From: Gemmatimonadaceae bacterium
Lineage (GTDB): Bacteria; Gemmatimonadota; Gemmatimonadetes; Gemmatimonadales; Gemmatimonadaceae
Direction of reading: 5' to 3'
Assembly: GCA_013813715.1 (NCBI GenBank)
Contig: JACCRF010000045.1
Coordinates: 1-46,806 of the forward strand
DNA length: 46,806 bases
Shown here: positions 20,008 to 23,427 of the stretch, piece by piece
Layout of the letters: each line of letters opens with the position of its first letter
Position numbering within the stretch: the stretch's first letter is position 1
Notes under the pieces: model-generated
Database searches by the model: none
Told to the model about the DNA's origin: nothing
What the model saw: only the letters and a program-made list of their open reading frames with translations
Made by a program: the position numbers and the translations under genes

Positions 20008-20044
20008 TCACGGAGACACCATCTCACCTGGGTGAGGAGGTTCT

Positions 20045-20239
20045 GTGAAAGCCTACGTCAGCACAACCGGGGTAGTTTTTGCCCTGCTCACTGTCGCGCA
20101 TATCTGGCGCGTTATCGAGGAAGGGCCGCACCTGGCGAAGGATCCCTGGTACGTTCTCATAACCGTTGCCGCCGGCGCGCTCAGTCTTTGGGCTTGGCTC
20201 GTGCTGCGGCACTCGCGACGGAAATCCTCACCTTCCTGA
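20045..20239 (+). CDS. Small two-helix membrane protein
   Basis: 64 residues from GTG 20045, preceded by AGGAGG at 20035-20040. Two hydrophobic segments (STTGVVFALLTVAHIWRVI and WYVLITVAAGALSLWAWLVL) flank a short loop with E-E-G-P-x-L-A-K-D-P-W. Short proteins of this layout are widespread and uncharacterised in Proteobacteria and other soil bacteria. It lies 37 bp after the lipoprotein and is probably co-transcribed. A short hairpin (20023-20036) overlaps its Shine-Dalgarno. Function unknown. Confidence 0.7.
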   Translation: MKAYVSTTGVVFALLTVAHIWRVIEEGPHLAKDPWYVLITVAAGALSLWAWLVLRHSRRKSSPS

Positions 20240-20646
20240 CATCATGCGACCCTCGATCCTGCACCTGCGCGCTTTTCAAAGCGATCGCGCCAATCCTTCA
20301 CCCTGAAGGCACTAGCCATGAACGCCAGTCAGCAATTTGGAGAGAGTATCATTCTCCTGGTGCTAACGGCCGGTGTGACTGGCTTACTCATTCCGTGGCG
20401 AAGAGGCTGGCGGGGCGAATCATGGGATCATCTCCTTGCGTAAGGGAAACGAACACGGATGCGTCCGACGCGGCGCTCCCCAAAGGGCAGAGCCGCCGGG
20501 CGAACCATTCGCAGCAGGAACAAGCCGAGGGCGTCGTTTGTGACAGAGCACGACCGCGCACGTGCTGCCCGTCCGGATACTGACTTGTAGTCCTTCCCCA
20601 GTGGCAAGCCGGCGATTTTCGATGGGTCGCGCAGTATTTTTTTAGA
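20240..20646. other. Sparse region between small membrane protein and cation-efflux gene
   Basis: About 400 bases without a gene of normal size. The only candidate I can support is the 41-codon frame at 20318-20443, listed separately. The rest (20444-20646) is GC-rich, with no convincing ribosome-binding site, tRNA or long hairpin. An AT-rich run just before 20647 (TATTTTTTTAGA) may be part of the promoter or leader of the downstream gene. Confidence 0.5.
20318..20443 (+). CDS. Very short membrane protein or gene remnant
   Basis: A 41-codon frame from ATG 20318 to TAA 20441, with GAAGG about ten bases upstream. It encodes a single hydrophobic helix (GESIILLVLTAGVTGLLIPW) followed by a charged tail (RRGWRGESWDH). 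The helix, ending in TGLLIP, resembles the N-terminal anchor of longer membrane-tethered bacterial proteins, in which a coiled coil follows. The sequence after the stop does not continue that pattern convincingly in another frame. It is therefore either a genuine micro-protein or the 5' remnant of a decayed gene. Confidence 0.35.
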   Translation: MNASQQFGESIILLVLTAGVTGLLIPWRRGWRGESWDHLLA

Positions 20647-21288
20647 ATGGCATCTGCTCTTGCGACCGAGGTGGAGCGTCCAGCCCTTGTCCGGCGTGGG
20701 CGCGTACTGAGCATCGTAACGCTGCTGTACAACAGCCTGGAGGGGATCATTGCCGTGATCGCAGGCTTCGCCGCGGGCAGCGTGGCACTGGTAGGATTCG
20801 GCGTCGATAGTGGAATTGAGGTCAGTGCGAGCGCGGTTGCGCTCTGGCGGCTGGCGGCCGACACTGACGTCGCGCGTCGCGCTCGAGCCGAGCGGCTTGG
20901 CTATCGCTTGATTGGAGTATTGTTTTTCGCGCTCGCGGTGTACGTGGCGGCCGACGCCACCGCTTCTCTCATCGGTCGCGACGAACCCGAAGCCAGTCCG
21001 CTTGGCATTGCACTCGCGGCCTTATCGCTCGTGGTCATGCCTTACCTGGCCAGCAACAAGCGTCGAGTTGGCGTCGCCCTGGGCAGTCTGGCGCTGACAG
21101 CAGAGTCAAGGCAGACATCGCTCTGCATGTACCTGTCTGCAATCCTGCTTTGCGGCCTGGTTCTCAACGCGGCGCTTGGCTGGTGGTGGGCAGACCCTGT
21201 TGCCGCGCTGCTGATGGTGCCGATAATCGTCCGCGAAGGCATTGAAGGGGTCCGCGGGGAGCCGCCGTGCGCGGACGCATGTCACTAG
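20647..21288 (+). CDS. Cation efflux (CDF) family transporter, short form
   Basis: 213 residues, six predicted helices with no cytoplasmic C-terminal domain. Helix 2 carries VGFGVDSGIEVSAS, where Asp and Glu spaced by three residues take the place of the D-x-x-x-D metal site of YiiP-like CDF proteins. Helix 5 reads AESRQTSLCMYLSAILL and is followed by GWWWADPVAALLMVPIIVREG, a pattern I associate with the short CDF/TMEM163-like group. The C-terminus has two cysteines and a histidine (PPCADACH) that may bind metal. It likely exports a divalent metal such as zinc from the cytoplasm; metal identity is not certain. Flanked by unrelated small genes. Confidence 0.82.
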   Translation: MASALATEVERPALVRRGRVLSIVTLLYNSLEGIIAVIAGFAAGSVALVGFGVDSGIEVSASAVALWRLAADTDVARRARAERLGYRLIGVLFFALAVYVAADATASLIGRDEPEASPLGIALAALSLVVMPYLASNKRRVGVALGSLALTAESRQTSLCMYLSAILLCGLVLNAALGWWWADPVAALLMVPIIVREGIEGVRGEPPCADACH

Positions 21289-22488: not shown

Positions 22489-23427
22489 CTAAGGCGTGTT
22501 TCTCAACTCGATCAGCAGACTGGTGGCGCCGCGCGTCCGGAGGTCGGCGGCCAGCGCACGCCCCGATTCCTCAGGTAACGATGAATCGACGGAAACCGCT
22601 CCGCGCACGAAGTCGCGTCCCTCGAGATCACTTACGAAACCGTGAAGCACGAGTCGGCCCTCTGCGTCCACCATGGCCAGCGCCCCGATTGGAACCTGGC
22701 CACCGCCGTCGAGCGCGGCGAGAAACGCACGCTCGGCGCGAGTCGCGATCGCCGTCGGAGTGTGGTCGAGCGGAGCAAGGACGGCTCTCATCGCGTCGTC
22801 TTCGCGTCGCATCTGGATCGCTATCGCGCCCTGGCCGGCCGCGGGAAGCCAATGCGGCGGCTCGAAATACTCGGTGATGCGCTGCTTCGCGTCGAGCATT
22901 ATCAAATCCGCGGCCGCGAGAATCGCCGCGTGAACCTGACCAGTATCCACCTTTCGCAGCCGTGTCGGAACGTCGCCACGCAACTCCACTATCTCGAGAT
23001 CTCCTCGCGCGGCCGCGAGCTGCGCACGGCGGCGGGGGCTCGACGTGCCCACGCGCGATCCCGCGGGAAGCGATGCGAGGCCGTCGGCCTGGGTCACGGC
23101 GTTCACCACCAGCACGTCCCGCGGATCCTCGCGCTCGAGAACGGCGACGACCTCGAGATCCTCCGAATCATCCACCGGCAGATCCTTCAGCGAGTGCACG
23201 CAGCAATCCACCTTGCCCTTCCGCAGCGCCACCTCGAGCTCATGCGTGAACAATCCCTTTGCTCCGATCTCGCTCAGCGGTTTGACGCGTTTCTTGTCAG
23301 CAGTGGTCTTGAACGGGACCAGCTCACATTCGATACCGCGCTGGCCGAGCCCGGTCTCGACCATTCGCGCCTGCCTCCGCGCGAGCTCAGACGAGCGGGT
23401 CGCGATCCGAACGGTGCGTAGGGTCAT
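22489..23427 (-). CDS. hemC: Porphobilinogen deaminase (hydroxymethylbilane synthase), cofactor Cys replaced by Gly
   Basis: 312 residues from ATG 23427. It joins four porphobilinogen units into hydroxymethylbilane in heme biosynthesis. Nearly all active-site features are present: IATRSSELARRQA, VHSLKDLP with the catalytic Asp, VGTSSPRRRAQL, LRGDVPTRLRKVDTG and PAAGQGAIAIQ. The exception is the loop that anchors the dipyrromethane cofactor: the family sequence LEGGCQVPIG reads LDGGGQVPIG here, so residue 243 (E. coli Cys242) is Gly, codon GGC at 22699-22701. A single base change from TGC explains it. Either the enzyme is unusual, the gene is inactive, or there is a base error. The ccm genes upstream use heme, so context fits. 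Confidence 0.93.
   Translation of the reverse strand: MTLRTVRIATRSSELARRQARMVETGLGQRGIECELVPFKTTADKKRVKPLSEIGAKGLFTHELEVALRKGKVDCCVHSLKDLPVDDSEDLEVVAVLEREDPRDVLVVNAVTQADGLASLPAGSRVGTSSPRRRAQLAAARGDLEIVELRGDVPTRLRKVDTGQVHAAILAAADLIMLDAKQRITEYFEPPHWLPAAGQGAIAIQMRREDDAMRAVLAPLDHTPTAIATRAERAFLAALDGGGQVPIGALAMVDAEGRLVLHGFVSDLEGRDFVRGAVSVDSSLPEESGRALAADLRTRGATSLLIELRNTP

Follow-up and report, generated by a model that had tools for sequence, protein, structure and literature searches.

A hemC-like gene with glycine at the cofactor-anchoring position

The window analysed here, a stretch of 46,806 nucleotides from a Gemmatimonadaceae genome (G000), carries a hemC-like gene situated between cytochrome c maturation (ccm) genes and an inorganic pyrophosphatase gene (Table 1). 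Read from the ATG at 23427, its product matched the HemC profile TIGR00212 over its full length with 302 bits (curated cut-off 164), and PF01379 and PF03900 were each detected above their cut-offs. The AlphaFold2 model of the protein (mean pLDDT 93.4, pTM 0.91) predicts an intact, three-domain fold.

Table 1. Features of the hemC locus in the window (positions are those of the whole window).
Feature	Start	End	Strand	Basis or remark
Tet/Bcr-type MFS efflux transporter	18312	19514	-	At this locus in G000 and G015
Inorganic pyrophosphatase-like gene (ppa), on the downstream side of the relatives' heme locus	21848	22387	-	Name from sequence
hemC-like gene, 312 aa, intact reading frame	22489	23427	-	PF01379, PF03900 and TIGR00212 profile matches; AlphaFold2 model
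Codon GGC (Gly243), position of the dipyrromethane-anchoring Cys242 of E. coli	22699	22701	-	Alignment
Met177 at the E. coli Arg176 position (Arg in relatives and E. coli)	22897	22899	-	Alignment
Asp174 at the Gly173 position of relatives; same in G015, Ser in L197	22906	22908	-	Alignment
Asp152 at the Asn151 position of relatives; same in G015	22972	22974	-	Alignment
Scar of a deleted cobA/hemD fusion gene	23424	23522	-	Frame similar to HemD C-terminus of G013 and G003; stop overlaps hemC start
Small ccmD-like reading frame	23523	23660	-	Sequence directly; name inferred
ccmC-like gene for cytochrome c maturation, borders the relatives' heme operon	23653	24354	-	Name from sequence and position
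ccmB-like gene	24318	24998	-	Name from sequence and position
ccmA-like ABC ATPase gene	24991	25749	-	Name from sequence and position

The cysteine that anchors the dipyrromethane cofactor is treated as invariant in hydroxymethylbilane synthases, and its human counterpart, Cys261, was intolerant of mutation in a saturation screen (PMC10577081). The window protein is a natural, full-length HemC that lacks this residue. The plus-strand letters GCC at the anchoring codon read GGC on the minus strand, residue 243 lies in the loop LDGGGQVPIG, and alignment placed Gly243 onto Cys242 of the E. coli HemC of known structure. The first-pass annotation had reported this substitution, which is borne out by both the codon and the alignment, and the other loop Cys that it had considered was not found when the loop was aligned with that of E. 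coli HemC. Residue changes are given below in E. coli HemC numbering, and the alignment to PDB 1ah5/1pda shows the correspondence independently.

The same annotation had described all other active-site motifs as intact, a description that held only in part. Lys83, Asp84, Arg131, Arg132, Arg149, and Arg155 are kept, but the window protein departs from 20 relatives at 6 of the 108 columns that are invariant among them (G45A, L130P, N151D, G173D, R176M, and C242G), and carries two further changes in the active-site loop (L49R and D50V). Conserved catalytic or substrate-contact residues are altered by N151D, G173D, R176M, and D50V. Four of the six changed invariant columns belong to a published list of polypyrrole contacts (PMC3945110), to which Cys242 was added for this analysis, compared with 1.6 expected (P 0.04). 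No variation was seen at N151, G173, or R176 across the phylum sample, whereas position 130 varies among Cys-bearing enzymes. Because the Cys-bearing HemC of G020 also has P130, this residue is not diagnostic, and L130P was dropped as a sign of inactivity. Among characterized variants, R131L and R132L lose the cofactor, R149H and R176H impair the enzyme, and in E. coli it is elongation that R176H impairs (PMC3945110).

Remnants of a siroheme-dependent heme operon

In four relatives (G003, G012, G001, and G006) the corresponding locus contains, in order, ccm genes, fused ahbAB, a cobA/hemD fusion, hemC with its Cys, hemB, and then ppa, which the stretches retrieved for G001 and G006 do not reach. 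The locus of G013 is arranged in the same way, except that ahbAB was not seen there. The fused ahbAB encodes siroheme decarboxylase, and the locus of these congeners is a siroheme-dependent (Ahb) heme operon. The window hemC occupies the same position between the ccm genes and ppa, but all pathway genes of the old operon other than hemC are missing from the loci of both the window genome and G015, a second genome of the same genus. In the window, ahbAB, cobA/hemD, and hemB are gone, and the sole hemB copy of this genome lies on another contig, C156. What remains of cobA/hemD is the scar that abuts hemC, whose frame resembles the HemD C-terminus of G003 and G013 (matched as well by 0 and 1 of 1000 shuffles, respectively). 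The deletion junctions in G015 differ from those in the window. The window protein thus resembles members of the TIGR00212 family in its three-domain sequence and predicted fold, in most of its substrate-binding arginines, and in its 61-74% identity to the Cys-bearing HemC proteins of congeners, but differs from them by the missing anchoring Cys, the replacement of N151, G173, and R176, and the absence of an adjoining hemB or hemD.

Other features of the locus also vary. Among the genomes compared, the Tet/Bcr-type MFS transporter is present at this locus only in the two genomes with Gly-bearing HemC, and it was not seen in the corresponding contexts of G013 and G003. Between a small lipoprotein-like gene and ppa, the window contains a frame of doubtful coding character (20032-20583) and one that, by eye, appears cation-efflux-like (20647-21288); no match to the frames in 20032-21288 was found in the relatives' loci.

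The cysteine column among relatives

The position equivalent to Cys242 was examined in 195 HemC loci, some of which are the same gene fetched twice, the compared relatives being Gemmatimonadaceae metagenome assemblies. Cys was present in 176 of these. The remainder comprised the window genome and G015, L197 with Pro, G187 with Tyr, short proteins that do not extend to the loop, and a single fragment at a contig edge. Examination of close relatives, proposed in the first-pass annotation, thus yielded the same Gly in a second genome, and the HemC of G015 also shares L130P, N151D, and G173D with the window protein and has further changes of its own (K59T, S81A, K83R, R131A, and R149H). Neither hemB nor hemE was detectable in the G015 assembly, which is ∼95% complete, and therefore its HemC lacks a home-made substrate in that assembly, with the proviso that the missing hem genes could be assembly gaps. 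A search of this genome for another hemC found none. Including G015, hemB was not detectable in four genomes that are 95-100% complete (G015, G022, G028, and G055), hemC was also not detectable in the latter three, and hemE was not found in any of the three genomes searched for it (G015, G022, and G028). The genomes without hemB suggest heme auxotrophy in the family and order.

In the HemC encoded at L197, a lineage closer to another genus, Pro stands in place of the Cys and is accompanied by S129N and G173S, and the neighbouring hemB is gone. L197 was at one stage counted as a case without hemB, which was corrected when hemB and a second, Cys-bearing HemC were found in another cluster of its genome.

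A second hem cluster encodes a HemC without domain 3

Contig C156 carries the gene order hemA-hemC-hemD-hemB-hemQ (chlorite dismutase-like)-hemE-hemH-hemL, located between dtd and maf, which in relatives adjoin each other beside glmS without such an insert. The glmS gene on C156 is single-copy and 93% identical to that of G013, the nearest congener, and therefore C156 most likely belongs to the window genome. Contamination was judged unlikely on the basis of this gene, the conserved dtd and maf flanks, and a similar tetranucleotide profile, leaving a small chance that C156 derives from a mixed congeneric bin. Among the genomes seen, the cluster is closest to those of g36, a different genus of the Gemmatimonadaceae (hemE 74-76%, short hemC 61-64%), a similarity which suggests that it arrived horizontally. 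The search for a second hemC, which the first-pass annotation had recommended, therefore had a positive outcome, and its proposal that the window gene is inactive and the cell relies on another hemC is supported in outline, with a full hem cluster now located; the additional gene, as it happens, is a short form that also lacks the Cys.

The C156 HemC (L002, 1405-2139, minus strand) is a protein of 244 amino acids comprising domains 1 and 2, with a stop codon overlapping the hemD start. It matched PF01379 with 225 bits and had no PF03900, and without domain 3 it is hence also without the anchoring Cys, so that neither HemC of the window genome has this residue. Profile searches detected PF03900 in G000 only in the window gene, and nowhere in three genomes of genus g36 (G071, G072, and G213; loci L123, L124, and L125). 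Each of these has a HemC of ∼236 amino acids, likewise with domains 1 and 2 only, as the sole HemC detected, and also carries hemA, hemD, hemB, hemE, hemH, and hemL in near-complete hem operons. The predicted structure of the C156 protein (pLDDT 92.1) matched E. coli porphobilinogen deaminase (1pda) with an E-value of 1.4e-27. The short proteins keep R11, S13, D46, K83, D84, S128, S129, R131, R132, R149, R155, R176, and Q198 but show no conservation of the active-site loop residues K59, G60, and L61. All four share the motif GQGALAVQCRADD, whose Cys is often present at the same position of ordinary HemC as well.

Selection and shared history of the Gly-bearing genes

Branch-specific omega values in a codon model were 0.039 for the window gene, 0.071 for G015, and 0.074 for L197, with a background of 0.065, and omega = 1 was rejected for each (2dL of 38, 63, and 23.5 for G000, G015, and L197). 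Relaxed selection was accordingly not indicated by any rise of omega, in a test that averages the whole branch, perhaps mostly predating the loss of function, and for which silent sites are near saturation. In simulations of neutral evolution, no stop codon appeared with a probability of 0.64 for the window gene and 0.18 for G015. Therefore, an intact frame does not by itself demonstrate selection in the window genome.

The number of changed invariant columns is 6 in G000 and 24 in G015. Four are shared, all of them changed to the same residue, an outcome that none of 4000 simulations of independent neutral decay produced. Common descent of the Gly in G000 and G015 as sister genomes was rejected, since species data from eleven genomes reject their sisterhood (AU p 0.002). 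The hemC alignment cannot decide this question, being compatible with both the species tree (AU p 0.15-0.17) and a G000 and G015 grouping, and when the eight residues shared only by these two were removed, the hemC tree placed G000 with G003 (support 76). The shared changes would represent either parallel change, and hence probably selected change, or transfer of one altered hemC.

A probable disabled HemC after pathway replacement

The comparisons described above make it probable that the window gene once encoded an active hydroxymethylbilane synthase, has since lost catalytic function, and was left in place after pathway replacement. In the ancestor, HemC would have been part of the siroheme-dependent operon ccm-ahbAB-cobA/hemD-hemC-hemB-ppa. 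A complete classical (coproporphyrin-type) hem cluster would then have entered another part of the chromosome, separating dtd from maf, and the old heme operon would have been deleted except for hemC and the hemD scar. Freed from its duty, HemC would have lost the cofactor-anchoring Cys and substrate-contacting residues while its reading frame and fold were kept, and it would no longer be able to assemble its primer. The protein would now be either a pseudoenzyme kept for another purpose, its two-domain cleft perhaps accommodating a ligand, or a relic not yet broken down, and we hold a new role and a slow relic to be about equal. The lack of activity, the order of events, and the horizontal origin of the new cluster are the parts of this scenario that we infer. 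Weighing against a disabled enzyme are a profile score far over the cut-off and the retained Lys83, Asp84, and four arginines, with which residual activity is possible, as well as an omega test that cannot separate the time before the loss from the time after it, and the possible gaps in the G015 assembly. Cys and other catalytic residues were lost in at least two, probably three, lineages in which all or part of the old heme operon has been taken apart, and these offer an uncommon opportunity to observe how an ancient enzyme becomes a pseudoenzyme or relic once its pathway is replaced.

Of the two forms that a disabled HemC might take, remodelling by selection for a non-catalytic role, for example binding of a less acidic ligand in the periplasmic-binding-protein-like cleft, is a serious possibility that falls somewhat short of likely. 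It would account for the identical replacements at the four columns shared with G015, which neutral simulation did not reproduce, and the rejected sisterhood and differing deletion junctions point to parallel change. In addition, two of the changes place Asp in a pocket that binds acidic pyrroles and would repel them, purifying selection is seen over the whole branch, and the fold is predicted to be intact. On the other hand, the hemC data reject neither tree, and selection need not be invoked for the shared residues if a single altered hemC was transferred between the lineages; moreover, a Cys-bearing HemC tolerates L130P, which is among the four changes in common. A gene recently released into neutral decay, with no stop codon yet, deserves the same tentative standing. 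The pathway partners have been deleted around it, and the small number of changes at invariant sites, along with the absence of stops from most neutral runs, fits a recent release; yet the changes are skewed towards substrate contacts and overlap with those found in G015, in which the frame is still open after four times as many changes, although neutral decay would leave no stop there with a probability of 0.18.

Continued synthesis of hydroxymethylbilane by the window protein, with its primer held non-covalently or anchored differently, is improbable. Many catalytic residues remain, and the other HemC of this genome is also Cys-less, so that heme synthesis, if there is any, needs a Cys-less HemC. 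Against this, R176M, N151D, and G173D come on top of the Cys loss, the window gene seems dispensable in view of the three genomes in which a short HemC is the only one alongside the hem genes, and G015 keeps the Gly form without a detectable hemB. The earlier idea that the enzyme holds its cofactor in another way is therefore disfavoured for the window gene, because R176, N151, and G173 are replaced and the adjoining hemB and hemD are gone. An assembly or base error at 22701, the other reading raised at that stage, is extremely improbable and was rejected. GGC is a single base away from TGC (Cys), but three other catalytic residues are changed as well, and the independent genome G015 shares the Gly along with several of the changes that accompany it, so that errors would be needed at several catalytic positions and once more in another genome. 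Sequence comparison thus confirms that the Gly at the Cys242 position is real, and makes an artefact very unlikely.

Possible tetrapyrrole synthesis with short HemC proteins

The question of other cofactor anchoring becomes live for the domain-3-less HemC of C156, which is a more surprising object than the window protein. We regard the evidence as evenly balanced on whether the window genome and the three g36 genomes make tetrapyrroles with a HemC that has neither domain 3 nor the anchoring Cys. Such an enzyme would need either non-covalent binding of its primer or a different attachment residue, one candidate being the Cys of GQGALAVQCRADD. A functional short HemC would mean that covalent attachment to the domain-3 cysteine can be dispensed with, and a natural HemC without this domain makes the question of whether covalent anchoring is needed at all directly testable.

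A class of short hydroxymethylbilane synthases, which we take to be chlamydial, is already catalogued as the NCBIfam model NF002202 (PRK01066; 241 positions). The C156 protein is of similar length and matches this model significantly, but its score of 119 bits is below the curated cut-off of 251, so that it is not a member of this class; the window HemC is full length. No title or abstract in the open-access literature searched dealt with a Cys-less or domain-3-less HemC in Gemmatimonadota.

Two further observations concern HemC proteins with other residues at the Cys position. L197 (4983-5939) and L286 (9923-10858), both from G315, comprise the old HemC with Pro, which adjoins cobA/hemD, and a second hem cluster of the same genome with a Cys-bearing HemC (GGCTLPFGAW) near response-regulator-like genes. 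The HemC with Tyr at this position (L133 and L287, both from G187) keeps most catalytic residues and has an altered active-site loop, GAPDLF.
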